The translations under genes and the position numbers were made by a program. From assembly GCA_007134085.1 (NCBI GenBank), contig SLLL01000052.1, positions 1 through 36,499 of the forward strand: 36,499 bases of DNA, read 5' to 3'. Source of the DNA: Balneolaceae bacterium. GTDB taxonomy: Bacteria > Bacteroidota > Rhodothermia > Balneolales > Balneolaceae. The notes beneath the pieces were generated by a model. The model was not told the DNA's origin, ran no database searches, and saw only the letters and a program-made list of their open reading frames with translations. Shown here piece after piece: positions 22,010 through 36,499 of the stretch. Positions within the stretch are counted from its first letter, which is position 1; every line of letters starts with the position of its first letter.

Positions 22010-24013
22010 ATGAATTACCTCAGACAGATTATCTCATTTACTCTTTTATCTCTAACATTGCTTCTTTTATCCGCATGTAATTATCAAAATGAAGATGGAT
22101 ATGAGCAGATTATTCAAACCGATCTGCTAGTAGCCGGTGGGGGTGCAAGCGGAACCTCAGCTGCAATACAGGCGGCAAGAGATGGTGTTGATGTAGTGGT
22201 AGTTGAACCCTCTCCGTGGCTTGGGGGTATGCTGACTGCTGCCGGTGTTAGTGCAACAGATGGCAATCATAACCTGCCATCCGGCATTTGGGGAGAATTC
22301 CGTGAAAAACTTAGGGAATACTATGGAGGCGCTGAGGCGCTGGCTACAGGGTGGATCAGCCACACACTGTTTGAACCGCATGTGGGCAACCGAATTCTGA
22401 ATGAAATGATGGATAATTATCCGAACATCCGGAGAGTTCATGGGTTTTATATTGATGAGGCCATCATGGAAGGTAACCGGGTTACCGGTGCTACTTTTTT
22501 TGATATGGATGGAAACAGGCTTCGGGTTGAAGCAACTATCAGTATTGATGCAACCGAATATGGCGATTTAATGGCACGTTCAGGTGCTGATTATTTTATC
22601 GGGCTTGACCCCAAAAGCAGAACCGGTGAAGAGATAGCACCCACACATGGCAATAGTGCAATTCAGGATCTCACCTATACAGCAACACTGAAAGATTTTG
22701 GCCCTGATGCAGACATGACCATCCCAAGGCCTGCCAACTATCAGCCATCCATCTTTTTGAATGCCTGTAAAGAACTGAGTGAAGACCCTGAAACATTTGA
22801 TGGCGTGGATTGTGTAGAGATGATGGATTATGCCCGCCTGCCGAATGATAAATTTTTGATCAACTGGCCAAATAATGGAAATGATTACTACTTGAATGTT
22901 TTGGAGATGAATCATCATGAACGGCTTACGCTTTATGAGGAAGCAAAAAACCGAACCCGTCAGTTTATCTATTTCATACAGGCCGAAGGCGGGTTCAAAA
23001 ATCTTGGCCTTGCTGATGATGAATACGGTACGGATGATCTTTTCCCGCATATACCCTACCACAGAGAGTCGCGGAGGCTTGATGGGCTTACCATGCTCAC
23101 CATGAATGAGTTAATTGATCCTTATGCTGTTGAAAACGATCTGTATAAAACTGCAATTGCAGTTGGCGATTACCCACTGGATCATCATCGGGACCTGAAC
23201 CCATCACCACCTTCGCACCTTCTTGAACCCGGCGACCGTGAACCCTACCAGTTCGAAACCCGATTCGGTGCATTTCCACCTATTCCATCGTTTTCTATCC
23301 CCTTTGGTTCATTAATCCCAAAAACCATTGATGGCTTGTTTGTTGCAGAGAAGAGTATTTCCGTAAGCAGTATTGCAAATGGCTCGAGCAGGTTACAGCC
23401 TGTAGTGATGGGCATAGGCCAGGCAGCCGGTTTAGCTGCGGCTATTGCAATTAGGCATAATTTACAGCCTCGCAACCTGCCGCTAAGACAGGTACAACAA
23501 GCACTGCTCGATACAGACAGCTGGGCACTGCCATTTATCGATTCTACGCCTGATGACTGGCATTTTCAACCTATACAGAGAGTTGGGCTAAGCGGGGTAT
23601 TAAAAGGCCACGGCGTACCTTATGCCTGGGCTAACCAAACCTGGATCTACCCTGATAGCACAATGAGTACCAATGAACTTGCGGATGCCATTTCGCGGGC
23701 TGTAGATTCGCCTGTGCAAACCCCGCCGGAAAGTAATACGCGGGTCGGCGTGATTTTATCAATCTGGCAGCAAATCGGATCGCCAGCACCATCAGGAGAG
23801 GTTCCTTTTTCTGATGTTGATTCAACCATAATTGCATACGATGCCATTGCCTTTGCCGCTGAAAATGGCTGGCTTGATGGATGGATTACAAATGATAAGT
23901 TTGAACTGAATAACCCAATCAAACGAAAAGAGTTCGCAAAAATAGTGGATGTTGCTTTAGATCCGTTTAAAAATCTACCAATAGCCATAGTACCGGAGCG
24001 GTACAACAGGTAG
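22010..24013 (+). CDS. FAD-dependent oxidoreductase lipoprotein with C-terminal S-layer-homology-like repeats
   Basis: The 667-residue protein has a lipoprotein signal (TLLLLSAC, lipid Cys23). An FAD_oxidored-type domain follows, with the dinucleotide motif LLVAGGGASGTSAAIQAARD (39-58), SPWLGGMLTAAGVSATDGNH and the late FAD motif GLFVAEKSISVSSIANGSSR, then QPVVMGIGQAAGLAAAIAIR. The last 150 residues differ from ordinary members. Residues about 515-566 (GVLKGHG, TWIYPDSTMSTNELADAI) and 598-650 (PFSDVD, YDAIAFAAENGWLDGW, NPIKRKEFAKIVD) each look like an SLH repeat. The repeats suggest attachment to cell-wall or surface glycan from a lipid-anchored enzyme. The substrate is unknown; related proteins act on sugars or polyols. 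Confidence 0.87.
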   Translation: MNYLRQIISFTLLSLTLLLLSACNYQNEDGYEQIIQTDLLVAGGGASGTSAAIQAARDGVDVVVVEPSPWLGGMLTAAGVSATDGNHNLPSGIWGEFREKLREYYGGAEALATGWISHTLFEPHVGNRILNEMMDNYPNIRRVHGFYIDEAIMEGNRVTGATFFDMDGNRLRVEATISIDATEYGDLMARSGADYFIGLDPKSRTGEEIAPTHGNSAIQDLTYTATLKDFGPDADMTIPRPANYQPSIFLNACKELSEDPETFDGVDCVEMMDYARLPNDKFLINWPNNGNDYYLNVLEMNHHERLTLYEEAKNRTRQFIYFIQAEGGFKNLGLADDEYGTDDLFPHIPYHRESRRLDGLTMLTMNELIDPYAVENDLYKTAIAVGDYPLDHHRDLNPSPPSHLLEPGDREPYQFETRFGAFPPIPSFSIPFGSLIPKTIDGLFVAEKSISVSSIANGSSRLQPVVMGIGQAAGLAAAIAIRHNLQPRNLPLRQVQQALLDTDSWALPFIDSTPDDWHFQPIQRVGLSGVLKGHGVPYAWANQTWIYPDSTMSTNELADAISRAVDSPVQTPPESNTRVGVILSIWQQIGSPAPSGEVPFSDVDSTIIAYDAIAFAAENGWLDGWITNDKFELNNPIKRKEFAKIVDVALDPFKNLPIAIVPERYNR

Positions 24014-24056: not shown

Positions 24057-27000
24057 TTAAACTACTTCATCAGCGATTAATTCATCAGGTTTATTATCAC
24101 TTTTTGATGATGTTCGGGCATTGGTAAGTGGAAGTGTAAAACTAAATACACTTCCCTTGCCAATTTCACTTTCTACCCAAATTTTTCCATCCTGAAGCAC
24201 AACAAACTCCTTACATAATGCAAGGCCCATTCCAGCCCCTTTCTCTCCCTGAGTACCCAGTTTCGAATGTTCTTTAGAACCGCCAAATATCTGTTCTAAC
24301 CGCTCACTTTCAATGCCTACACCCTGATCAATAACCGATACAGTTGCGCAAGAGTCATCTTTTTCCAGTTTTATTGTTATCGATTTACCAATCCCGGAAA
24401 ATTTTATTGCGTTGGATAACAGGTTACGCAATACCGTCTTAGTCATATTTTTATCAGCTCTGGCGAACAAAGGCATATCCGCATCAATCAAAACACTTAC
24501 CTGTTTAAACGCAGCCTGAGAAGCTACCATATCAACTACCTCATTGATTAAACTTTTCATCTCAACATTTTCGATATTTACGTTTAATCCACCACCCCTT
24601 GTTCCGGACCATTGCAACAGATTTTCGAGCAAATTGAGTGAGTTTTTGCCCGAATCCAGAATCATATCGGTAATTTCAGAATATTCTTCATTGCCCTTCT
24701 GTTCAAACTCAAGCTTAAGAAGCTCAACGTATCCTAAAATTGTGTTAAAAGGATTCCTCAAATCGTGAGCTAATATGCGATGAAGTTTATTTTTTTCTTC
24801 AATCAATTTTTTCAACTCTTCATTAGAACTTTGCAGTTCAGTAGTTCTCGCTTCAACATCTTTTTGCAGCTGTAGGTTATATGCCCTGATCTGCCTTACC
24901 CTGTAGCGGTACAAAGCCGCGAGAAGAGCAATAAATAGAGTGAGAACAATCAAAAAGAACCATAGCGTTTGCCAGTATGGAGGAATAACTGTAATAGATA
25001 AGCTGGCTCCTTCTTCGTTCCAAAAGCCATCATTATTCGATGCCCTTACCATAAATGTGTATGTACCGGGCAGAAGTGAAGTATAGGTAGCTTCGCGTGC
25101 TCCAGTTGCCCGCTGCCAGCTGGTATCGAACCCCTCCAATTTATACTCGAATTTAACATTTTCAGCATTTCTGAAGCTAAGTGCTGTAAAGCGGAATGTG
25201 ATCCGTTGAGTATTATGTGGTATTTCAGAAATATCAGACATGGGACAATTTATTCCATCTAATTCTACCTCTTCAATAAATACTCTGGGCACTTCTCTGT
25301 TTTGCTGAAAAAGATCCGTTCTAAGCAAAGCCATACCTTGTACAGTAGGTATGAAGAGCTCACCTCGGGCGCTTAATAAGCTAGACGGCATAAAACCACC
25401 CGTAGTTTCACGAATTGGCATACCCTCAGAAACCCCAATCCTTGAAACTCTTACCCTCTCAATTTCATATGCTAAAAAAAGTTCTATCTGTTCATTTTCG
25501 ATAAAAAACACACCCATATTACCTGCCAGCCAGAGATTGTTATCCTCATCAAACTCAACCTGGGAGATAGTGTTATCAAAAAGCCCATTTTGTTCATCCA
25601 GAATCTTAGTTCTGCCATTCGAGTTGTAAATCAGCATACCGGCGCCATAACTGCCAAACCAAAACCTCCCTGAACTGTCGCGGTTTATGGTTCTGAAATT
25701 TGTGATTGAAAGCTGTTTAAACTCATCCGGTTTAGTAATGGTTGAGCCATTGTAATATCCTATACCGTTATCTGTGGCTACAAATATTGTTCCGCTCTCA
25801 TCTTCATAAATGGTTCTGGTTGCTGATACAATCTCACCTGAATCATTCAAAACCGAAATAACTTCATTTCCATCGTACTTGAAAAGCCCATAATAGTACG
25901 AACCAAACCATAAATTTCCTGCTCCATCTTCATGCATGGCGAGTACTACATCTGCATTTCGTAGCTCATCGGGGATGAACCGTTGAAACTGATTGGAGTT
26001 CTGTGGTTTATAGTATACTCCCCCGCCCCAGGTACCGGCCCAAACGGTTCCGTCAGATTGTTGCATTACAGACCAAACGCAGGTGTTAAGGATGCCGGTG
26101 GCTGACCCATACCTTCGATAAGCATCTTTATTTACCTGATACAAACCATCACAATTTGTGCCAATCCAAACATCGCCGCTTTGATCTTCTAATATAGCAG
26201 TAAGCGCTGTACCTGCTAAAAAATCGAACCTATCGCCCTGATAAACCGGTGTTTGTATAAGCTGAATCATACCATTAGCAGGTTTTGCCAGCCAAATAGA
26301 CCCCTCGTGATCAAACGTAAAATCTAATGTATGTATACCCGACAACAAGCTTACTTCTTTTTCATTTTCAAATAGGTTTTGCACCCGTAAAAACCCATTG
26401 TTGCCAGAGATGTAATGACTGCCATTAAAGTATTCTACTTTATGGATCATGGACTGCCCTATTTGTTCACGGCCTAATATAACCTCATATTGATCATCAC
26501 CTATCTTTACAATACCACTCTCGTGAACAATAACCATCTCTCCCTCATGCCACTGAATGTCTCTCAACCTGTAAATTGTTCTGAACGATCGAACAGTTAA
26601 CTCTTCATCTATTAATACTGAGATTGAATTTTCATCTTCGTTATACCTAACAACCAATGTATGATCCTCGCCAATTCGCCCTAACTTATATACTTCGAAA
26701 TCAAAAACTACATATAACCGCCCATCATGCTCTCGGAAGCTTTGTACAGATTGCCTTGGCAGTTTAGTATACCTTCTGAATTCACCATCATTGAATGAAA
26801 AAAGGCCTCTGCTGGTGCCTACCCATAAGTTGTTATCAATAAAATTAAGATTTGTAACAAATGTATTTGGTGGTGTTAACTCTTCAGGTATTTTGTATAC
26901 TTTTGAAATATTCCCATCTATCATAACAACGTTGCTGTACTCAAGCCCGGCCCAAATTCTGCCTTGGCCATCCTCTGCAACTGCTGTAAAACGGTTTGAT

Positions 27001-27317
27001 TGAAGCTCGGGCAAATTGGTGTTGTTAAATACCACCTTACTTTGGCCATCGAAACGTACCAAGCCATTAAATGTGGCAGCCCAAATGTAACCTCTCGAAT
27101 CCTGAATTATCTGGTTTACGCCATTGGCGGGCAGCCCATTTTCAGTGTTGAAAATTCTGGAAATTGTATGATTGTCTTGAACGGTAGTTACCGAATAGCT
27201 TGTAACCTGTGCCTTAGATATGAGGGGCAAAAATAAAAGAAGAGACAAAAAAAATAAAGACGCACCATTTGTAACTCTTTTGAATGGTACTGTTGCAATG
27301 TATTTCTTCTCTTCCAC
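24057..27317 (-). CDS. Large periplasmic beta-propeller/Y_Y_Y sensor histidine kinase (no receiver domain)
   Basis: The 1086-residue protein begins with a signal sequence (hydrophobic core about 19-35). Two-component-regulator propeller repeats follow to about 690, with many copies of W-G-T/S patterns such as GYIWAATFNGLVRFDG, GDVWIGTNCDGLYQV and GTVWAGTWGGGVYYK. The Y_Y_Y domain is about 700-785 (FEYKLEGFDTSWQ, LPGTYTFMVRASNNDG), then comes one membrane helix (about 790-812) and a coiled coil. The kinase core has H-box ILAHDLRNPFN with His851, N-box LRNLLSNAIKFS, VIDQGVGIE and GEKGAGMGLALCKEF. It ends without the receiver and AraC-type output module seen in Bacteroidetes hybrid sensors, so it needs a partner encoded elsewhere. 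Such sensors usually detect glycan fragments. Confidence 0.93.
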   Translation of the reverse strand: MEEKKYIATVPFKRVTNGASLFFLSLLLFLPLISKAQVTSYSVTTVQDNHTISRIFNTENGLPANGVNQIIQDSRGYIWAATFNGLVRFDGQSKVVFNNTNLPELQSNRFTAVAEDGQGRIWAGLEYSNVVMIDGNISKVYKIPEELTPPNTFVTNLNFIDNNLWVGTSRGLFSFNDGEFRRYTKLPRQSVQSFREHDGRLYVVFDFEVYKLGRIGEDHTLVVRYNEDENSISVLIDEELTVRSFRTIYRLRDIQWHEGEMVIVHESGIVKIGDDQYEVILGREQIGQSMIHKVEYFNGSHYISGNNGFLRVQNLFENEKEVSLLSGIHTLDFTFDHEGSIWLAKPANGMIQLIQTPVYQGDRFDFLAGTALTAILEDQSGDVWIGTNCDGLYQVNKDAYRRYGSATGILNTCVWSVMQQSDGTVWAGTWGGGVYYKPQNSNQFQRFIPDELRNADVVLAMHEDGAGNLWFGSYYYGLFKYDGNEVISVLNDSGEIVSATRTIYEDESGTIFVATDNGIGYYNGSTITKPDEFKQLSITNFRTINRDSSGRFWFGSYGAGMLIYNSNGRTKILDEQNGLFDNTISQVEFDEDNNLWLAGNMGVFFIENEQIELFLAYEIERVRVSRIGVSEGMPIRETTGGFMPSSLLSARGELFIPTVQGMALLRTDLFQQNREVPRVFIEEVELDGINCPMSDISEIPHNTQRITFRFTALSFRNAENVKFEYKLEGFDTSWQRATGAREATYTSLLPGTYTFMVRASNNDGFWNEEGASLSITVIPPYWQTLWFFLIVLTLFIALLAALYRYRVRQIRAYNLQLQKDVEARTTELQSSNEELKKLIEEKNKLHRILAHDLRNPFNTILGYVELLKLEFEQKGNEEYSEITDMILDSGKNSLNLLENLLQWSGTRGGGLNVNIENVEMKSLINEVVDMVASQAAFKQVSVLIDADMPLFARADKNMTKTVLRNLLSNAIKFSGIGKSITIKLEKDDSCATVSVIDQGVGIESERLEQIFGGSKEHSKLGTQGEKGAGMGLALCKEFVVLQDGKIWVESEIGKGSVFSFTLPLTNARTSSKSDNKPDELIADEVV

Positions 27318-27443: not shown

Positions 27444-29252
27444 TTAGTTGAGCAACTGTGGCTGCTGATCTTTCTCTTTATCGATGGTGGAAAGATGCCT
27501 GAACCAGGTGAAGTAGAGCGCAACTGAGAGTACTGTGAGAATGGCAGCGAGAATAAAGAAGTTCGTCCACTGTTTGGTCATAAATGCCATTGGTGTTAAG
27601 AAAAGCACAATTTGCCACGGCACTGCAATGAATATGGAGATAATATCCCGCCGGTTCTCTTTGTTGATATCTTCTATATCGGCAGGGTTGAACAGTTTTC
27701 TCACTGGCCCCCAAAAGCCAAAAGGCCTTGTGGTTTTGTAAAAATTGACGAGCGTTTTGTCGTTTGTTCTTGTAGTAAGGAGAGATACAGATATTGATAT
27801 TACAAAAGTGCCGCCTGCAATAATCATAAAACCCTGAAGCTCCGGTATGCCGGGTGCAATGAATCGCTGGCCAATAGCTAAAATCATGCCTGCAAGTGTT
27901 CCAAAGGCAAACCCATATCCATTAAACCTCCACCAGTACCAGCGTATAACCTGCGGTACAATCAAACCGGCTCCCAATCCCATTGTGAGCCAGCTCCAGA
28001 GTTCGTTCAGGTTTCGGAATGTTAATGTGAAAAGAACACCAATTACCACAACCCCTATACTGGCGAGGCGGCTTTGCAAAACCAGTTTCTTCTCAGATGC
28101 ACGTGGGTTTAGAAACCGATGGTAAATATCTTTCACCCAGTACGCTGCTCCGGCATTCACTACAGAATCGAATGTGGACATAGCAGCTGCAATGAGCCCG
28201 GCAACCAGTAAACCTGTGATGCCTATCGGCAGCTCATTCATAATAACAATGGGCAGAACTTCCTCAGGGTTTTCTATAACAGCTCCACCAAGGCCAATAC
28301 TTATACCTATAATGGCTATAGCCACCACAAACGGCCATCTGAACGAGAGTAGCAGAATCCAAAAGAGGCTGAGAAGGCCCGCTTCTCTATCACTCTTTGC
28401 GGCAAAATAACGCTGAATAAGATACCCACCTGTACCGCCACTCCCCTCAATAGATGTTTTGAACAGATAGAACAGAACAGCTATGCCAAACAGATTATAC
28501 TGAGAATATTCACCGGGCAGATCCATCGTCCAGCTTGGAACAACATTTGCCCAATCTGATAAACTCACTTCGATTGACTTAAACCCTCCTTCCAGCAACG
28601 GCACGGAAACCATGAAAACCTCCGGCAGGTCAAACCGGACAAATGCCAGAACACATACATAGATTACGGTAAAAAAGATTAGAAACCCCTGAAATACATC
28701 CGTATAAATCACACCATAAAATCCGCTTACTACAGTGTAGATAGAAGCGAGGGCAATCATAAGTAATGCTGCCGTAATAGGTTCAATATTCAGAATACTG
28801 CCAAGAAATATTCCGGCTCCCTGAGTAAAGTATGTTACAATAGCAATTGTGAACATTAAGTTAGCTATAGCGCTTAGCAAACGTGCTGAATTACCCTGCC
28901 TGCCACTGCCAAACCTAAGTTTCATCCACTCGGCTACCGTCATAACCTGAGCACGCCTGTTCCATTTGCCCATAAAAATCATCAGAAAAGCCATGATTAA
29001 AACCATGCCGCCCCTGATCTCTATGAACAATCCTTGAACACCAATTGCGTAGATAAACGCAACAATTATCAGCGTACCTGCTACATCAAGATTGGATGCC
29101 ATTCCGCTCGAGCCCAAAGCCCACCAAGACATGTTTCTGTTCCCCAAAAAGTAGCTCTCGGGGTTTTTACCCGCTTTTCTTTGCGCATACAAGCCTATGC
29201 TGATAAGAAAAATCAGATAGACTGCAATAATTCCAAAATCAATAGCATGCAT
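27444..29252 (-). CDS. Sodium:solute symporter (SSS family)
   Basis: The 602-residue membrane protein has about 13-14 hydrophobic helices. The first (IIAVYLIFLISIGLYAQRKA) is followed by the family motif NPESYFLGNRNMSWWALGSSGMASNLDVAGT, which contains helix-1 sodium-site residues. The core segment VVSGFYGVIYTDVFQGFLIF and the helix-8 region GLIAAAMSTFDSVVNAGAAYWVKD are also typical SSS sequences. The family imports sugars, amino acids or carboxylates with sodium. The gene follows the GHL10 lipoprotein gene by 88 bases on the same strand, without a visible terminator. It is probably co-transcribed, and its substrate is likely a sugar released by that enzyme. Confidence 0.94.
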   Translation of the reverse strand: MHAIDFGIIAVYLIFLISIGLYAQRKAGKNPESYFLGNRNMSWWALGSSGMASNLDVAGTLIIVAFIYAIGVQGLFIEIRGGMVLIMAFLMIFMGKWNRRAQVMTVAEWMKLRFGSGRQGNSARLLSAIANLMFTIAIVTYFTQGAGIFLGSILNIEPITAALLMIALASIYTVVSGFYGVIYTDVFQGFLIFFTVIYVCVLAFVRFDLPEVFMVSVPLLEGGFKSIEVSLSDWANVVPSWTMDLPGEYSQYNLFGIAVLFYLFKTSIEGSGGTGGYLIQRYFAAKSDREAGLLSLFWILLLSFRWPFVVAIAIIGISIGLGGAVIENPEEVLPIVIMNELPIGITGLLVAGLIAAAMSTFDSVVNAGAAYWVKDIYHRFLNPRASEKKLVLQSRLASIGVVVIGVLFTLTFRNLNELWSWLTMGLGAGLIVPQVIRWYWWRFNGYGFAFGTLAGMILAIGQRFIAPGIPELQGFMIIAGGTFVISISVSLLTTRTNDKTLVNFYKTTRPFGFWGPVRKLFNPADIEDINKENRRDIISIFIAVPWQIVLFLTPMAFMTKQWTNFFILAAILTVLSVALYFTWFRHLSTIDKEKDQQPQLLN

Positions 29253-29340: not shown

Positions 29341-30528
29341 TTATTCGCGATATGGTAAACCGGCCGTACTGTAGTAGGTTGATTCAAAAATGGCATCGCC
29401 CAGATTTTCATTATTTTCATGAAGCCCTTCATAGAAAAAGAATACCTCCCCGTCTATACCAAGTTCACGATGTAAGCGAAGTGCCTCATTTACATACTCC
29501 GGGCCGTTATAGCGATCCCCAACTTTAATCAACACTCCCGGAGCGTGAAATATCGGCTGATCCCTGCCTTCCGATAACTCCCGCTCTTCCTTTGCCCGCA
29601 AAAAATGATCATGTGTTTCTATGAGTGTAGCCCTGTAGGCGTCAATATCGTACCTGTAAACCTGAGGATGGATAATATCAACAATTCCCCGGCGTATCCA
29701 CTCGGGCCAGTCCTGCAGATATTCATATTTCGACCAATCGTACGGGCTTGGCGAAAATGAGACGATCAAGCCCCTGTCATATGATTTAACCATCTCAAAA
29801 AGTTTTTCTCCAAAATCGGTAAGCCTGTCGGCCTTCCATTGCAAAAACGGCTCTTCGAGATGATTGGCTGGTGGATCTTCACCAAACTCTGCGCGGTAAA
29901 GTTCTCGTGTGTAATCAGAATATCCACCTTCTGCGGGCAGCGCCGGAAGCCGGTCATCACCCTGAATGCCGTCGATATCGTAATTTTTTATCACCTCAGC
30001 AATCAGTTTTAGCATGAACTCCTGCACTTCGTGATGAAACGCATTCATCCATTCAAAGCCGTTTTTGGTTAACAAATTACCCTCAGCGTCTTTTGCAGCC
30101 CAGTGAGGATATGCATCAAGTATGTGCCCGCCACCAAGGTTGTGAGAACTTGCAAATCCATATTCAAACCAAGGTATCACTTCAATTTCGTGCTCTCTTG
30201 CAAGATCAATCAAATCCTGAAGTGCATCCCTTCCCGGCTCATCAAAATCGGGGTGTATTCGATACTCTTCGCCAAAGTACTCAGCCATCACATCACTTGG
30301 GTAGAGTGTATATCCTGCATTCCACACAACCGGAAAAATTACATTAAACCCCCGCTCTGCAAGAAAATTGACCGCCACTTCGCTCTTGGTCCTGTTGAAC
30401 ATCACTTCAGAGTCTACATTAGTGATCCAGACACCTCGAATTTCCCTGAGTTCTTCTGCCCTGTCTGCATCCGTAGTGCAAGAACTAAAAAAAACCGAGA
30501 TGAATAAAAGCAGCAAAATGATTCGCAT
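29341..30528 (-). CDS. GHL10-type family 10 glycosylhydrolase-like lipoprotein
   Basis: This 395-residue lipoprotein has a short signal with a lipobox (VFFSSC, Cys17). The mature part is a TIM barrel of the GHL10/YddW type. REIRGVWITNVDSEV (28-42) opens the barrel, PVVWNAGYTLYPSDV is near strand 2, IPWFEYGFASS lies at 118-128, and YDIDGIQGDDRLP at 183-195 supplies acidic residues in the usual catalytic region. Members are seldom characterised but act on glycans or peptidoglycan. The gene lies downstream of a LacI-type palindrome and a good sigma70-like promoter and precedes the symporter gene, fitting an import unit in which surface hydrolysis is followed by uptake. The exact bond cleaved is unknown. 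Confidence 0.88.
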   Translation of the reverse strand: MRIILLLLFISVFFSSCTTDADRAEELREIRGVWITNVDSEVMFNRTKSEVAVNFLAERGFNVIFPVVWNAGYTLYPSDVMAEYFGEEYRIHPDFDEPGRDALQDLIDLAREHEIEVIPWFEYGFASSHNLGGGHILDAYPHWAAKDAEGNLLTKNGFEWMNAFHHEVQEFMLKLIAEVIKNYDIDGIQGDDRLPALPAEGGYSDYTRELYRAEFGEDPPANHLEEPFLQWKADRLTDFGEKLFEMVKSYDRGLIVSFSPSPYDWSKYEYLQDWPEWIRRGIVDIIHPQVYRYDIDAYRATLIETHDHFLRAKEERELSEGRDQPIFHAPGVLIKVGDRYNGPEYVNEALRLHRELGIDGEVFFFYEGLHENNENLGDAIFESTYYSTAGLPYRE

Positions 30529-30701: not shown

Positions 30702-31970
30702 ATGGGCAATCACATCCTAAAAAAATCAGATATCAACCCGGCAGATTTCGGTTGCATTGAGTATGTAAAGGTGGAAAACCCCGTTTCCGTATTTCCTGAG
30801 TTTGAATTGTTGCCTCTCGCTGATTCCCTATCCGTCTTCACCGATAAGCCCAAAGCGTTCTTGATGGATATGGATGGCACCACAACCACAACTGAAACTC
30901 TCTGCCTTTATGCTCTTGAGGATGCTATCCAAAAAGCGTGCGGTAGCCATAATTTTGCAGGCCTGGATTCTGAAACAGACTATCCCAATGTTATCGGCAA
31001 CAGCACCACGAAGCATGTTGAGTATCTTGTAGGAAAATATCAGGCGCTATTTGATCTGAGCGCACTTTTCAAGCAGTATCATGAATCAGCACTGTGGACT
31101 ATCAACGAGTGCAGAGATGAAAACAGGCGTAAACAGGCGCATGAAAACCTCCGTTTTTTTGGTTTGATTGATAAGGGCAACAAACCCGTAAACATCCCGG
31201 AAAAGCTTGCGGTATTTGAGGGTAAAGTACGAGCCTGCACAGATATCTACTACCACACCTACCACCTCATTTTAAATGCAATTGAGGCGGGTGATGATGA
31301 GTACCTTAACAATATTCCGGGAATAAACTCCGACGAAAAACTTATAAAACCAATGCCGGCTGTTGCAGCAACTCTTGCAATCATGAAAGGTGACCTTGGA
31401 AAAGAAGCAGGCAAACTGTCCGCCTTCTTTTCTGATATGTTACATGTAGAGGAACCCATCAACAACACACAAGAGGTGCTTACTAATCTTGGCGGGTATT
31501 TTGAAAAAAACCCAGCTAAAATTGCGCTTGTAACATCATCCATTAAGTTTGAGGCGGATATTGTAATGAATCAGGTGTTTGAAGTTATCAGACAAGAAAT
31601 TTCCGGCTGGCCGGTTCCTCACTCTTGCCGGGAAAAATTAAACCGGCGTTTTGCCACACCTGAACACTGCTACGATGCGTTCATTACCGCGAATGATGCT
31701 AACGAAATGCGGCTCAAGCCACATCGCGATTTATACTCAACCGCACTGCAAATGCTGCAAATTAAACCGGCTGATTTTCACACCGTTGCCGGTTTTGAAG
31801 ACAGTGAAAGCGGTACAATTGCACTTCGTGCAGCAGGTGTTGGCCTAACAGTTGCCCTGCCATTTTTAGAATCAGCCAATCACAATTTTGGCGCTGCAAG
31901 CCGTGTAGTGAAGGGCGGGCTGCCCGAAGTACTGCTTAAGCACCGCCTTTTTTTATCTGAAATCCTGTAA
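30702..31970 (+). CDS. Large HAD-superfamily hydrolase, probably a sugar-phosphate phosphatase
   Basis: All four HAD motifs can be seen in this 422-residue protein. Motif I is FLMDMDGTTTT, with Asp56 as nucleophile and Asp58 as acid/base. Motif II is IALVTSSIKFE, motif III is the Lys in MRLKPHRDLYSTAL, and motif IV is VAGFEDSESGTIALRAAG. This order matches the beta-phosphoglucomutase/phosphatase subgroup. However, the cap region between motifs I and II is about 210 residues, far longer than the four-helix cap of ordinary members. About 45 extra residues precede motif I. No signal peptide is present. It starts the plus arm from the shared operator and is followed after 24 bases by the GH38 gene, so a role on a phosphorylated sugar is inferred. 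Confidence 0.85.
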   Translation: MGNHILKKSDINPADFGCIEYVKVENPVSVFPEFELLPLADSLSVFTDKPKAFLMDMDGTTTTTETLCLYALEDAIQKACGSHNFAGLDSETDYPNVIGNSTTKHVEYLVGKYQALFDLSALFKQYHESALWTINECRDENRRKQAHENLRFFGLIDKGNKPVNIPEKLAVFEGKVRACTDIYYHTYHLILNAIEAGDDEYLNNIPGINSDEKLIKPMPAVAATLAIMKGDLGKEAGKLSAFFSDMLHVEEPINNTQEVLTNLGGYFEKNPAKIALVTSSIKFEADIVMNQVFEVIRQEISGWPVPHSCREKLNRRFATPEHCYDAFITANDANEMRLKPHRDLYSTALQMLQIKPADFHTVAGFEDSESGTIALRAAGVGLTVALPFLESANHNFGAASRVVKGGLPEVLLKHRLFLSEIL

Positions 31971-31994
31971 CACCCAATTTCAATCATATTGGTT

Positions 31995-34784
31995 ATGCAA
32001 AAAAACAGAGTTTTTCATGTAATCTCGAATACTCACTGGGACCGTGAATGGCGGTTCCCCTACCAGCGCAACCGCCAAATGCTGGTTGAAATGATGGATG
32101 AAGTGCTCAGGATTCTCGAAACAGAGCCCGGTTATCGTGCCTACCATCTCGACAGCCAGTCTATTATGGTGAAAGATTACCTGGAAGCAAGGCCCGGAAA
32201 AAGGGAACAGCTTACCAAGTTTGTTGAGGAAAAGAGGCTTTTTATCGGCCCATGGTACACCCTGCCTGATCAGTACATGGTTGGCGGTGAAAATCTGGTT
32301 CGTAACCTTCTTAGGGGGCATGAAGTTTGTGCTCAGTATGGCGGTGTATCAAAAATTGGCTACTCTCCGTTTTCGTGGGGGCAAATTTCTCAGCTGCCTC
32401 AGTTGTACCGGCAGTTTGGGGTACATCTCATCATGTTTTACAGAGGCATCAATTCATTCGACAGCCCAAAGGCGGAATTCATCTGGCAGGGAGCAGACGG
32501 CACTAAAGCACTTGCTTCCCGGTTTTCTACCTGGCCACGATACAATTTCTACTTCTACATCTATCGGCCGGTAGTTCACGGAGAAATGCCTGCCGACATT
32601 GAGCAGGCCTGGGGCAACGGCGGCACACCTTTCCACTTCGCTGACCCAGAGCAGGCTGATGAGGATTACTTTATGAGCCGCTTTAAAGATGGCTACACAA
32701 AAGAGAACCTTCGGGATGCTGTAGAAAAAATTATAGCGGACCAGGCTGATGATTTTACAACCCGCCACGTAATCTGGATGGAAGGGCACGATTCAAGTGG
32801 CCCTAATGCAAAAACGGTAGAGCTACTGGAAGACATTAAGAAAGAGTTTCCAGAGCTTGATGTGCGCCACAGCACTCTTGAGGATTATGCCGAGGCTCTC
32901 GCGGAAGAAGCAGATACCGCCTCACTGCCGGTAGTTACAGGAGAAAGGCGAAGCGCACAGTACGACAGGCGCAGTTCCAACCTCTACGGCTATGCGTTGT
33001 CTGCGCGGATGTATTTAAAGCAGGCCAATTTTAACGCAGAACGCTGGCTGCAGTATGTTGCAGAACCACTAAACTCTCTCATGGGCATCTGTGGGCTGGA
33101 TATTTTCGACAGATACCCCGAACTGGCATGGGATCTACTGGTGCAAAACTCTGCCCATGACTCAATTGGCGGCTGCAGCCTCGACCGCATCCACGAAGAT
33201 ATGATGGGCCGTTTTCAGCACTCTGAGGAGATCTCCCGCGGCATGGCAGATCGCGCCATGCGTCATCTCGCTCAACAGGTTGACCTTTCGGATGCACCTG
33301 AAGATTCTATCCACCTTGTTGTAGTGAATACCACTCAGTTTGCGAGAAATGAAATTACTGAAGCCTTTGTGGATGTACCTAAGTCAGCCGATAAAGGCAG
33401 CATTAAGTTTATTGACAAAAACGGCAGCGAGCTTCCCTTCCAACTGATTGAGCGAACGGACGTACAACCGGTTCTTGAACAGATGATAAACCGCCCTATG
33501 TATTTTGACATGGTTCGCTACAACATCTGGCTCCAAACCAGTGATGTTCCCGAAATGGGTGTTAACGCTATTCGTGTAGAACCGGCTGAAAAATCCACAG
33601 AATCAAACCACAAAATTGCTGCAACCGGTAGTAATCTACCCGTTCTCGAAAATGAGTATCTAAGGATTGCGATCAATAAAAATGGTACGTTCAACATCAC
33701 AGACAAAGTAAGAGAGCGAACTTTCAGCAATCAGGGTTGGGTATATGATGAAGGCGAAGCAGGCCACGCATGGGTGCATGAAGCCATCGGCCCATTTGTT
33801 GACACACGTTATAGTTCACCAGACATCACTATCTCAGAAAATGGGGCGCTCTCAGCTACTGTAAAGATTGAACATCTGCTTCAGCTCTCGCCGTCATTAT
33901 CTCACAGAAAGAGTAAAAGCAGCAACACGGTTGATGTTCCGGTAATAATCCGAATTTCACTGAAAAAAGGACAAAAGTGGCCTGAAATTAATGTGGAAAC
34001 TGATAACCGCGCTGAAAGCCATCGCATGCGCATGATGTTCCCGCTCGGGTTAAATGCTGATTACTCATTTGGTGAAGGTCAGTTTGATGTAGTTCAACGC
34101 TCCACAAACCGTATAGACAGCAGCAGCTGGGTTGAGCAGCCAATGTACGATTACCCCATGCATCACTTTGTGGATGTTTCGAATGATGAGGAGGGCGTGG
34201 CATTGCTTGTTGACGGGCTTAAAGAGTACGAGGTTTTAGATGATGCTGATCAGACGCTGGCAATTACACTGTTTCGCTCTTTCGAATACCGGATTCCTGT
34301 CTCTTCTGATGTTGATTATTCTCATATGAAAGGAACGCAATGCCTTGGAAAGCAGAAATTCCGAATGGCTTTCTTCCCTCACACAGGCAACTGGCACAGC
34401 GGTAATGTGTACCGAGAAGCTTTTACGTTCAACTACAATCTGCGGCTGTTTGAAACAGGCAGAACGGAAGGTGCCATCAAACCGGGGTCTTCATTTATAT
34501 CTCTTGACTCTTCAGATCTCATCTTCAGCTGCTTTAAAAAAGCTGAAGGAGATTTTGTGAATGAAAACGGAGAAACCGGCAGCGGTTCAAAGTTTGTGTT
34601 GCGGCTGTTTAATCCTTCTGATCAATTCTCTAAAGGTACGATCACATTTTTCAGGACGATCAAGAAAGCTGAACTGGTAACACTTGAAGAAAAAAGGGTT
34701 GCAGATATTGAGGTTGAAAACGGTAACTCGTTTAACATCAGTGCTAAACCAAAAGAGATCTTTTCGGTTAGGCTTACATTTTAA
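31995..34784 (+). CDS. GH38 alpha-mannosidase-like protein (MngB-type) lacking the usual nucleophile
   Basis: From ATG 31995 the protein has 929 residues and no signal peptide, so it is cytoplasmic. Family motifs are present: metal-binding THWDREWR (His14, Asp16), RLFIGPWYTLPDQ, the acid/base region WMEGHDSSGP (Asp266) and the metal-ligand segment NSAHDSIGGC (His388). The beta-sandwich C-terminal domains fill 430-929. In the nucleophile segment, KIGYSPFSWGQISQLPQLY corresponds to the family pattern GYxPDSFGxSxQxP, and Phe126 stands where the nucleophile and metal-ligand Asp is expected. The DNA at this point is clean, with no frameshift. The gene is coupled to the HAD gene upstream and ends two bases from the convergent epimerase gene. 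Substrate and activity are therefore uncertain. Confidence 0.9.
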   Translation: MQKNRVFHVISNTHWDREWRFPYQRNRQMLVEMMDEVLRILETEPGYRAYHLDSQSIMVKDYLEARPGKREQLTKFVEEKRLFIGPWYTLPDQYMVGGENLVRNLLRGHEVCAQYGGVSKIGYSPFSWGQISQLPQLYRQFGVHLIMFYRGINSFDSPKAEFIWQGADGTKALASRFSTWPRYNFYFYIYRPVVHGEMPADIEQAWGNGGTPFHFADPEQADEDYFMSRFKDGYTKENLRDAVEKIIADQADDFTTRHVIWMEGHDSSGPNAKTVELLEDIKKEFPELDVRHSTLEDYAEALAEEADTASLPVVTGERRSAQYDRRSSNLYGYALSARMYLKQANFNAERWLQYVAEPLNSLMGICGLDIFDRYPELAWDLLVQNSAHDSIGGCSLDRIHEDMMGRFQHSEEISRGMADRAMRHLAQQVDLSDAPEDSIHLVVVNTTQFARNEITEAFVDVPKSADKGSIKFIDKNGSELPFQLIERTDVQPVLEQMINRPMYFDMVRYNIWLQTSDVPEMGVNAIRVEPAEKSTESNHKIAATGSNLPVLENEYLRIAINKNGTFNITDKVRERTFSNQGWVYDEGEAGHAWVHEAIGPFVDTRYSSPDITISENGALSATVKIEHLLQLSPSLSHRKSKSSNTVDVPVIIRISLKKGQKWPEINVETDNRAESHRMRMMFPLGLNADYSFGEGQFDVVQRSTNRIDSSSWVEQPMYDYPMHHFVDVSNDEEGVALLVDGLKEYEVLDDADQTLAITLFRSFEYRIPVSSDVDYSHMKGTQCLGKQKFRMAFFPHTGNWHSGNVYREAFTFNYNLRLFETGRTEGAIKPGSSFISLDSSDLIFSCFKKAEGDFVNENGETGSGSKFVLRLFNPSDQFSKGTITFFRTIKKAELVTLEEKRVADIEVENGNSFNISAKPKEIFSVRLTF

Positions 34785-34786
34785 AG

Positions 34787-35959
34787 CTAAACAGATTCCT
34801 CAAGTTCTAGCAGCATCTGCCAGCAGTAGAAAAGTGCCCTCGGCACGTGGAAGCACCCTTTGTATGGGCCGCCCTTGAACCGGTGTGTTATTTCTCCCCT
34901 GCGATTGGCATATCCAAACCACTCACCAAACTCTTTATCAGAAAAGTGGGCAAAAGAGTAATCTGTAACCTCGGTGAAACTGTCCCAATCTTCTTTTAAG
35001 CCAAAGAGCTTAATATTTTGCAGGTGAGCAACCATTGCCTCACAATGCGGCCACCATAGTTTCATATCCCACTCAAGCTGGGTAGGCGAGTAACCCTCAT
35101 AATCCAGAAAGTAGTAAATGCCGCCATACTGCTGATCCCAGCCTTTATTATATGACCATCGAACCATATTCGCGGCGGTTTCAGCCAGTTTACTGTCCTG
35201 CTTTTTTTGCGCCCAGTTTTGCAGAAACCAACCGGCTTCAATTGCATGGCCGGGGTTTAGCAGGCGTCCGTCAATGTTGTTGATATACCCGCCATCTGGC
35301 GAAACAGTTTCGAATACCGCCTGCCTCTCTTCATCTACATGAAGCAAAATTCGCTGAATACACTCCTCTATCTCCGCACTGTATTGGCTGTCATTGTCCC
35401 GGGCTACCTCTTCAATAAGGTTCAGAAGTATCATTGGGATAGCGAGCGATTGGGATGCAACCTCACCTGAAAAAGCCGGCCTGCCAACTTTAGAAAGATC
35501 TTCTGACCACTCCCAAATCTTAGCAAGCTGAGATTCGGCTTTCTTTAGATAAGCCATATCACCTGAGGCGTATGCGTAACCGGCAAGAGCCATCACGTAA
35601 AAGCATTCAGAAAAAATCTTCCGTTGAAGGTAGATCGGCTTGCCATCTTCAGTCATCGAAAAATAGGCCCTGCCATCATCGCGAATAGCCTTGTCGGTTA
35701 AAAACTTCACCCCGTTCAAAGCTATTTCAAGCCATTCAACTTTCTGCTCATGTTCAAACAGCTTGCTAAACATCCAGGCCTGGCGGCCTTGCAGCCAGAT
35801 ATGCTTACGGGTGTCGTAAACTGAACCGTCCCGATCAAGGCAATTGTAGTAACCGCCATGTTTTTTGTCGATGGAGTGAGTTTCCCAAAAAGGAATTACG
35901 TGATTAAACAGCTCATTCTCGATCTGACATTTATATGAAACGATGTTTTCTTTTTTCAC
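34787..35959 (-). CDS. N-acylglucosamine 2-epimerase (AGE) family sugar epimerase/isomerase
   Basis: The 390-residue (alpha/alpha)6-barrel protein is full length for the AGE family. It begins with FWETHSIDKKHGGYYNCLDRDG, then HIWLQGRQAWMFSKLFEH with Arg59. The conserved histidines stand in LNPGHAIEAGWFL (His238), LWWPHCEAMVA (His305) and GCFHVPRAL (His371); the last two are the expected general acid/base pair. Members interconvert mannose with glucose or fructose, cellobiose with its mannose epimer, or N-acetylglucosamine with N-acetylmannosamine. The neighbouring alpha-mannosidase-like protein makes mannose or a mannoside the likely substrate. It lies 22 bases downstream of the DUF4434 gene on the same strand. 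Confidence 0.92.
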   Translation of the reverse strand: MKKENIVSYKCQIENELFNHVIPFWETHSIDKKHGGYYNCLDRDGSVYDTRKHIWLQGRQAWMFSKLFEHEQKVEWLEIALNGVKFLTDKAIRDDGRAYFSMTEDGKPIYLQRKIFSECFYVMALAGYAYASGDMAYLKKAESQLAKIWEWSEDLSKVGRPAFSGEVASQSLAIPMILLNLIEEVARDNDSQYSAEIEECIQRILLHVDEERQAVFETVSPDGGYINNIDGRLLNPGHAIEAGWFLQNWAQKKQDSKLAETAANMVRWSYNKGWDQQYGGIYYFLDYEGYSPTQLEWDMKLWWPHCEAMVAHLQNIKLFGLKEDWDSFTEVTDYSFAHFSDKEFGEWFGYANRRGEITHRFKGGPYKGCFHVPRALFYCWQMLLELEESV

Positions 35960-35981: not shown

Positions 35982-36499
35982 TTACTCCTTCAGCCACTCT
36001 TTGTAACGGTCAAAAAGGGTATGAGCCGCAGGATAGATGGATTGCGGGCTCATAAAATGGGAAAATTCAAACGTAATGAGTTTATCAACACCGGATTCAA
36101 GTGCCGATTCCATTTTATACCGCATTTTTGGCCAGGCTATAGGCGGGAATTTAATCGGCATATCGCGGTCGAAAGATTCTACATTACTCCAGCTTGTTAT
36201 GCCGTTTTCTGCTGCAAGCCTGCCATTTACTTCCAGGTAGTCTTTGAGTTCATGAAGGCCTACCTGCCCGTCCTGAAATGCCACGATATCTACAATTCCC
36301 TTAAGCCGGGAGAATACAGAACTCCACTCCTTTTCATGCTTTTCGAGAGTAATGGCTTCACCCCCAAATTGCTTGACCCCTTTCACGTAAGGCGAAATCA
36401 GAATAGGAATCTTTTTCAAGTTTCGTAAATGCGATGAAAGATCTTCATATACCTTCATGATTCCGTCATTGAACGTGTTAATCTCATGTGAAATGTACC
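35982..36499 (-). CDS. DUF4434-type TIM-barrel protein, N-terminus outside window
   Basis: The frame is open to the right edge, so only the last 172 residues are visible. The visible part starts YISHEINTFNDGIMKVYEDL, then PILISPYVKG, the EWSSVFSRLKGIVDIVAFQD segment with GQVG, SWSNVESFDRDMPIKFPPI and FEFSHFMSPQ. This pattern of ISPY, DIVAFQDG and W-NVE is typical of DUF4434, a barrel family related to glycoside hydrolases and found in carbohydrate loci. An internal ATG at 36458 is not the real start, since the conserved EI segment precedes it. It is followed after 22 bases by the epimerase gene and is probably its operon partner. Confidence 0.8.
   Translation of the reverse strand, partial: YISHEINTFNDGIMKVYEDLSSHLRNLKKIPILISPYVKGVKQFGGEAITLEKHEKEWSSVFSRLKGIVDIVAFQDGQVGLHELKDYLEVNGRLAAENGITSWSNVESFDRDMPIKFPPIAWPKMRYKMESALESGVDKLITFEFSHFMSPQSIYPAAHTLFDRYKEWLKE

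Follow-up and report, generated by a model that had tools for sequence, protein, structure and literature searches.

A glycoside hydrolase family 38 relative with phenylalanine in place of the catalytic aspartate, and its possible link to N-acetylmannosamine

What can a glycosidase still do when the residue that defines its mechanism has been replaced by phenylalanine? This question is raised by a gene on a contig of a Balneolaceae bacterium (SLLL01000052.1 of assembly GCA_007134085.1, analysed as one stretch of 36,499 nucleotides, hereafter the window), which encodes a relative of the alpha-mannosidases of glycoside hydrolase family 38 (GH38) and which we call GH38F. A sequence-only reading of the window had claimed that Phe126 replaces the aspartate that acts as nucleophile and metal ligand, and had offered three options: another residue takes over, the protein uses another mechanism, or it binds without cleaving. 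The replacement is confirmed here. The best explanation, judged from the sequences, is that GH38F is a metal-dependent, catalytic protein of predicted GH38 fold that would be unable to form the glycosyl-aspartate of the family. As to what it does instead, our preference is tentative: a still-catalytic GH38 offshoot that would act on alpha-linked N-acetylmannosamine (ManNAc), most likely by substrate-assisted (oxazoline) catalysis. The features of the gene are listed below, with the ATG at 31995 as residue 1 throughout and with the counterparts in SpGH38, the GH38 enzyme of Streptococcus pyogenes, taken from the accessible part of its structural report (PMC2815779).

31995..34784, plus strand: GH38F, the nucleophile-less GH38-like gene, 929 residues from the ATG (931 from an alternative TTG start at 31989)
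32034..32042, plus strand: H14-W15-D16, with the metal ligands H14 and D16 kept (SpGH38 H13 and D15)
32352..32408, plus strand: KIGYSPFSWGQISQLPQLY, residues K120 to Y138, the motif segment containing F126
32370..32372, plus strand: TTT codon of F126, replacing the GH38 nucleophile and zinc-ligand Asp
32442..32444, plus strand: R150, kept; counterpart of SpGH38 R149, which is thought to help ionise the nucleophile
32535..32669 (limits approximate), plus strand: insertion of about 45 residues (about 181-225), carrying R182 and R191
32781..32792, plus strand: E263-G-H-D266, a new Glu three residues ahead of the acid/base Asp
33156..33161, plus strand: H388-D389, metal ligand and substrate contact, both kept

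By sequence, GH38F belongs with GH38. All four Pfam domains exceed their cut-offs (PF01074, 112 bits against 25; PF07748, 75 against 25; PF09261, 31.4 against 31.1; PF17677, 30 against 22), and in a phmmer comparison with solved structures GYSPFSWG of GH38F lies without gaps over GYFPDTFG of 3lvt, 5kbp and 2wyh. At the same columns MngB, the mannosylglycerate hydrolase of E. coli K-12, reads GYLPDSFG, with its Asp in the F126 column, and the KIGYSPFSWGQISQLPQLY segment holds no Asp or Glu that could slide into that column. In SpGH38 the metal is bound by D125 together with H13, D15 and H351; D125 is also the nucleophile, on which R149 and Y192 act (Y192 through a hydrogen bond), D232 serves as acid/base, the sugar is held in position by F127 and W18, and the metal contacts O2 and O3 of the inhibitor, as described in the accessible part of that report (PMC2815779). 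Compared with this site, GH38F keeps H14, D16, W19, R150, D266, H388 and D389. The Asp with two jobs, nucleophile and metal ligand, is gone. The segment had earlier been placed at 32342-32401, which is shifted by about 10 bases yet includes the F126 codon. A sequencing error or misalignment is ruled out by the ungapped alignment to three crystal structures and by the occurrence of F126 in 40/40 rows of the core clade.

The fixation of these residues was read from an alignment of 42 core rows (one stop-split gene counted twice), three sister rows and 13 canonical rows. Fragments were left out (L016-L020, L023 and L028) and are covered by the motif count over contig loci given below. Among the core rows holding the column, Phe126 stands in 40/40, against Asp in 13/13 of the nearest canonical rows of the joint alignment. 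The four residues said to be kept are indeed invariant (H14 in 40 rows, D16 in 40, H388 in 41 and D266 in 41), as is R150, at an overall identity of about 50% among core rows. A scan of genome contigs found 28 loci encoding a relative; the motif stretch is present in 26 of them (it is absent from L019 and L028), and all 26 read [ST]PFSWGQ. Sampling 395 genomes of the phylum added 12 genomes, besides the window's own, with matches at 50-58% identity, below which there is a gap to about 30%, apart from short N-terminal pieces. None of the 10 same-genus genomes listed has a match at E 1e-20, and GH38F is therefore accessory. The tree, made by a quick method from 75 of the 100 rows aligned (without fragments, without duplicates and without three proteins of very high divergence), has 32 Asp rows on one side of a moderately supported branch (Shimodaira-Hasegawa-like approximate likelihood ratio test, SH-aLRT, 89) and 41 Phe rows opposite, with two degenerate rows among them; the core clade (38 rows) has an SH-aLRT of 98. 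Together with the 26 motif reads, this separation supports a clade of homologues with SPFSWG. The loci are labelled Balneolota, Bacteroidota, Ignavibacteriota and Neomarinimicrobiota, and a retaining glycosidase fold without its nucleophile, the remaining site being kept across four phylum labels, would constitute a natural experiment in the change of glycosidase mechanism. Two of the genes are interrupted (L104 by an in-frame stop, L023 by breaks), through decay or assembly error. One genome encodes a second, very divergent protein with a GH38 N-domain (L030, G000:C118 4628-5458), in which an Asp is aligned at the nucleophile column.

The loss of Asp126 is accompanied by other changes. Sites fixed in the core include, with the mostly fixed canonical residue in brackets, N12 (H), S54 (G), F126 (D), W128 (F), Q130 (H), Y138 (L), E263 (N), S267 (H) and G392 (C). 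In the nearest canonical GH38 rows the insertion is either missing or short; it begins one residue past the position of SpGH38 Y192 (phmmer alignment, the chain numbering being set by D125), and its R182 and R191 occur in 40/40 core rows and in 3/3 sister rows. The predicted locations of E263, R182 and R191 come from sequence alignment to a solved relative. E263 is present in 41/41 core rows and in 0/3 F126 sister rows. Two sister groups, both from Neomarinimicrobiota, have lost Asp126 as well: one has F126 with I, Q or S at position 263 (L112, L114, L115, L145 and L146), the other T126 with Asp at 263 (L138, L140 and L147; L141 shows the T126 only and L118 the Asp only), and Lys replaces R191 in some of the T126 rows. 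Because these groups share the loss and do not have E263, the loss of the nucleophile reaches wider than E263, which marks the core. The surroundings of the L147 gene, seen in L123, hold a URO-D protein and a B12-binding protein.

This distribution supports the first of the three options in part only. In the core, E263 is a new residue that never varies, but in the sisters that lack Asp126 the position is occupied by I, Q, S or D, which weakens E263 as a universal replacement. A hydrolase that acts on an ordinary or modified alpha-mannoside, perhaps with inversion, and in which E263, D16 or a metal-bound water serves as base or nucleophile instead, would fit the 41/41 core rows with E263 and the Asp at 263 in the T126 group. 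Moreover, GH97 is a single family with retaining and inverting members that use a different carboxylate, according to the accessible part of its description (PMC2670981). The F126 sister rows with I, Q or S at 263 argue otherwise, since one replacement cannot then serve all nucleophile-less groups, and we consider such a hydrolase unlikely.

The option of binding without cleaving looks the least likely of the three, because neither the remaining metal ligands nor the acid/base vary. A sugar-binding or regulatory protein without catalysis would account for the loss of the nucleophile together with one metal ligand, and more degenerate relatives do exist: in L117 and L120 (Neomarinimicrobiota, nested near the Phe clade) both the metal ligands and the acid/base motif are lost, and these two are possible true pseudoenzymes. 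However, three metal ligands and the acid/base do not vary in 40-41 core rows that are only about half identical, and the genes sit in metabolic clusters. For GH38F itself we regard a non-catalytic role as distinctly improbable.

There remains the option of another mechanism, which we tentatively favour. In alpha-ManNAc the axial 2-acetamido group is 1,2-trans to the axial leaving group, and for that reason the acetamido oxygen could replace the Asp: the carbonyl oxygen would attack C1 from the face of the lost residue to give an oxazoline or oxazolinium, with D266 acting first as acid and then as base. The aromatic pair F126/W128 would line an acetamido pocket and E263 may orient the amide. 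These roles, like the fold and the substrate, are what we infer from the alignments and the gene context. The substrate-assisted N-acetylhexosaminidases of GH18, GH20 and GH84 have carboxylates beside the acid/base that orient the substrate amide. They resemble GH38F in lacking an enzymatic nucleophile, in carrying a carboxylate shortly ahead of the acid/base and in an N-acetylhexosamine context; GH38F has no carboxylate at the nucleophile position and has in E263 a candidate second carboxylate. They differ from it in having other folds and in acting on beta-linked N-acetylglucosamine (GlcNAc) or N-acetylgalactosamine, and they are not known to use a catalytic metal. On our best reading, then, GH38F would work, by analogy, like a substrate-assisted hexosaminidase built on a GH38 frame. 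The ManNAc oxazoline forms chemically and yields alpha-glycosides, according to the accessible part of a 2012 paper, in which glycosidases for alpha- and beta-ManNAc glycosides are given as unknown (PMC3326621); an alpha-ManNAc activity of GH38F, if true, would fill this gap. It would also provide a tool for ManNAc-containing bacterial glycans and bring substrate-assisted catalysis into the GH38 fold, as the alpha-manno-configured counterpart of the beta-hexosaminidases. Among the titles and abstract openings listed for a nucleophile-less GH38 protein or an N-acetylmannosaminidase, from a searchable literature mostly without subscription papers, none describes this protein, and an alpha-ManNAc enzyme may have been reported since 2012.

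The clue to ManNAc comes from the gene context (epimerases of ManNAc and GlcNAc, a mutase and GH94), which the sequence-only reading did not have. We suppose that the core enzyme would remove alpha-linked ManNAc from imported fragments, and that the freed ManNAc would enter central metabolism through the N-acylglucosamine 2-epimerase (AGE), as in the window, or through a kinase and NanE, the epimerase of ManNAc-6-phosphate, as in the operon type of locus. Two routes from ManNAc to GlcNAc-6-phosphate are described for sialic acid catabolism, NanK with NanE and an AGE-type NanE-II with RokA (PMC8754123, accessible part). GH38F resembles these in being accompanied by NanE or AGE and is unlike them in that no NanA was found among the core-operon genes typed; its source of ManNAc would be a glycoside. 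In 38 distinct core genomes (40 minus two duplicates), 27 have NanE only, six AGE only, one both (G419) and four neither, so that both epimerases occur in one of the 34 genomes with either (Fisher p 5e-4, a value that ignores relatedness). The cut-offs were strict (E<1e-40 for NanE, E<1e-45 for AGE) and were chosen after seeing the tables, and these and the following genome counts come for the most part from metagenome assemblies, which vary in completeness. NanE is present in 9/198 genomes of the phylum, namely in 4/5 of those with GH38F and in 5/193 of those without.

In the Neomarinimicrobiota, examined afterwards, NanE is found in 7/9 genomes with an E263 core protein, in 1/20 without a GH38F match, and in none of the five (three sister, two degenerate) whose GH38F lacks E263 or is degenerate. 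This pattern suggests that the core with E263 tracks ManNAc and that the bare loss of Asp does not. Of the 45 genomes in this set, 11 with GH38 pieces that were unclassed or only distant were left out (G475, G483, G505, G431, G437, G442, G451, G456, G467, G479 and G487), two of which (G475 and G431) have NanE. PF07221 is matched at E 1e-20 in 7/45, including three NanE-bearing core genomes, where the proteins have 600 residues, and one sister genome (G447).

Several points weigh against a substrate-assisted ManNAc enzyme. The exclusivity of the epimerases depends on the cut-off, since at the Pfam cut-off 18/40 genomes have a PF07221 match, the weaker ones mostly in proteins of about 600 residues. 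Five of the six AGE-only genomes are kin, so that the counts are not independent: four are labelled Balneolales or Balneolaceae, the window's is close to them, and the sixth is labelled Melioribacteraceae. G419 has both epimerases, four core genomes have neither, and 2/9 of the Neomarinimicrobiota core genomes are without NanE. The sister groups have Phe or Thr at 126 and I, Q, S or D at 263, and NanE is missing from all five genomes checked (three sister, two degenerate); losing the nucleophile does not, therefore, in itself tie a protein to ManNAc. Standing three residues ahead of the acid/base, E263 need not share its face, and the 2-acetamido group would, by analogy with SpGH38 as described in the accessible part of its report, alter the O2 and O3 contacts to the metal. 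Another enzyme of the operon could be the one that releases ManNAc. Finally, R182, R191 and a HAD partner are superfluous for substrate assistance, and the function of the HAD protein is left unexplained by it.

The genes around GH38F in the window are as follows.

27444..29252, minus strand: SSF sodium:solute symporter, perhaps the importer
29341..30528, minus strand: GHL10 protein (the family that includes the lytic transglycosylase Cwp19), divergent from the HAD gene
30702..31970, plus strand: HAD-superfamily gene, 422 residues, weakly beta-phosphoglucomutase-like, directly upstream of GH38F on the same strand
34787..35959, minus strand: N-acylglucosamine 2-epimerase (AGE type, ManNAc/GlcNAc)
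35982..36497, minus strand: DUF4434 gene, cut by the window end

The same genes, GHL10, HAD, GH38F, AGE and DUF4434, are seen in L001 and L002, where SSF again lies on the side of GHL10. The AGE of the window scores 355 bits to GlcNAc 2-epimerases against 84 to the best cellobiose epimerase, and lies below the NCBIfam equivalog cut-off (400 against 600 bits). Across 41 loci (the window, 28 contig loci and 12 genome stretches, with two duplicates), NanE is present in at least 17, a GlmM-like phosphohexomutase in at least 20, GH94 in at least 25 and AGE in at least five (four distinct); these are lower bounds because many contigs end within the cluster. NanE and AGE never share a locus (0/41).

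The partnership with a large HAD protein, already pointed out from the window alone, proves to be a real pairing: a HAD gene adjoins GH38F in 37/40 core loci with room, that is in 31/33 distinct survey loci and 6/7 Neomarinimicrobiota core stretches. The 33 leave out two duplicates and the loci where the contig begins within the gene or just ahead of it (L017-L020, L028 and L072), and the seven leave out L137, which has no room, and the non-core L122-L128 and L136. The misses are L026, where no HAD was found, L025, whose nearest HAD belongs to a second and smaller type, and L135 (Neomarinimicrobiota). HADs of other types adjoin the gene in 2/4 sister loci, in which part of the neighbours were typed. 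The HAD gene of the window has its best NCBIfam matches in the beta-phosphoglucomutase (beta-PGM) family (TIGR02009, 28.8 of 153 bits; TIGR01990, 19.4 of 189). HAD matches to beta-PGM models have E values of 1e-6 to 1e-7 and fall far short of the curated cut-offs; the common HAD residues do not vary among the partner proteins aligned (18/18).

This pairing leads to the main rival of substrate assistance. GH65 phosphorylases pair with beta-PGM, which spares a kinase, and GH38F is like them in having no nucleophile and a weakly beta-PGM-like HAD beside the gene. As a glycoside phosphorylase, GH38F would bind phosphate through R150, R182 and R191 at the vacated Asp site. The phosphate would attack C1 with inversion to give a beta-manno sugar 1-phosphate, and the HAD protein would convert this to the 6-phosphate (ManNAc-6-phosphate), with NanE as the next step and no kinase needed. 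The missing nucleophile, the invariant R182 and R191 on an insertion that starts beside the SpGH38 Y192 position, the constancy of the HAD neighbour and of its common residues, its best match to beta-PGM and the GH94 phosphorylase in 25/41 loci all point in this direction. Less easily accommodated are the AGE loci, which need free ManNAc and yet retain the HAD, with NanE, mutase and GH94 missing from the stretch seen. The Phe takes up room that would be required for the phosphate, R191 is replaced by Lys in some T126 sister rows, and the HAD matches are weak. Furthermore, the accessible part of a review counting 11 CAZy families with phosphorylases makes no mention of GH38 (PMC8950772). GH65 and GH94 have a fold unrelated to that of GH38F, and phosphorolysis in GH38F is a proposal. 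ROK kinases occur in 24/24 genomes searched (of the 40 core genomes), so that the presence of a kinase cannot separate hydrolysis from phosphorolysis. We regard a phosphorylase as possible, with some doubt; if true, a family of phosphorylases would be opened up, along with a route to beta-manno sugar phosphates. The two mechanisms may be combined, since a GH84 N-acetylglucosaminidase was turned into a phosphorylase by one mutation, according to the same part of that review (PMC8950772). A speculative form of the substrate-assisted reading sees the core clade as the missing alpha-N-acetylmannosaminidase, with the axial 2-acetamido group as attacker and the oxazoline perhaps passed on to phosphate in some members.

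The arginine pair and the HAD pairing would also suit an enzyme for an anionic substrate, e.g. a phosphorylated manno-sugar, whose charge would be met by R182 and R191 and whose phosphate the HAD protein would strip before or after. One sister gene (L124, 1772-8841) is surrounded by an apparent heptose-type set (a cytidylyltransferase-like protein, an epimerase, a PfkB kinase, a HAD, then a SIS protein), which is in line with this. It does not explain the loss of the nucleophile, however, and the position of the arginine pair is deduced from sequence; such an enzyme seems to us very improbable.

Whichever of substrate assistance and phosphorolysis applies, annotation as an ordinary alpha-mannosidase would mislead. 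GH38F shares with the GH38 alpha-mannosidases (SpGH38, 2wyh; 3lvt) the four Pfam domains, the His-Asp-His ligands, the acid/base Asp, the stacking Trp and the equivalent of Arg149. It is unlike them in having Phe for Asp, W for F127, the two-Arg insertion and a Glu before the acid/base, and it should not be filed with them because the mechanism-defining residue fails. MngB is the only NCBIfam model that GH38F matches (479 bits, far under the cut-off of 1138). In the tree MngB groups with the Asp-bearing rows, close to the Phe clade and with a long branch, and unlike GH38F it has PDSFG and NGHD and is without the insertion.

The source of the substrate may lie in the cell wall. Cwp19, a studied GHL10 protein, is a lytic transglycosylase according to the accessible part of its description (PMC6016235); a GHL10 protein is also found by Pfam in the operon of L129 and by weaker similarity in L130 and L134, and an Amidase_2 protein stands beside one operon. 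Together with NAGPA these make peptidoglycan or teichoic acid a lead. The full order in L067 is: an unassigned protein, hydantoinase A, a flavin adenine dinucleotide (FAD) protein, NanE, an FAD oxidoreductase, mutase, HAD, GH38F, GH94, NAGPA and GDSL. GH94, which shares the operon with GH38F, scores nearly as high against chitobiose phosphorylases (455 bits) as against cellobiose phosphorylases (480 bits), and one GH94 protein of Ignavibacterium album is listed as a chitobiose phosphorylase in the accessible part of the review (PMC8950772). Hydantoinase A recurs in the operon together with a short piece of an FAD protein and the FAD oxidoreductase (L067, 886-5915), and a protein of 491 residues without a Pfam or NCBIfam match (L004, 790-2262), perhaps a transporter, heads several operons. 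In the window, a histidine kinase with regulator propellers and a Y_Y_Y domain (24057-27317, minus strand) adjoins the SSF gene and is a possible sensor for the locus; beyond it lies an FAD oxidoreductase (22010-24013, plus strand; PF12831) of the same family as the FAD protein of the operon.

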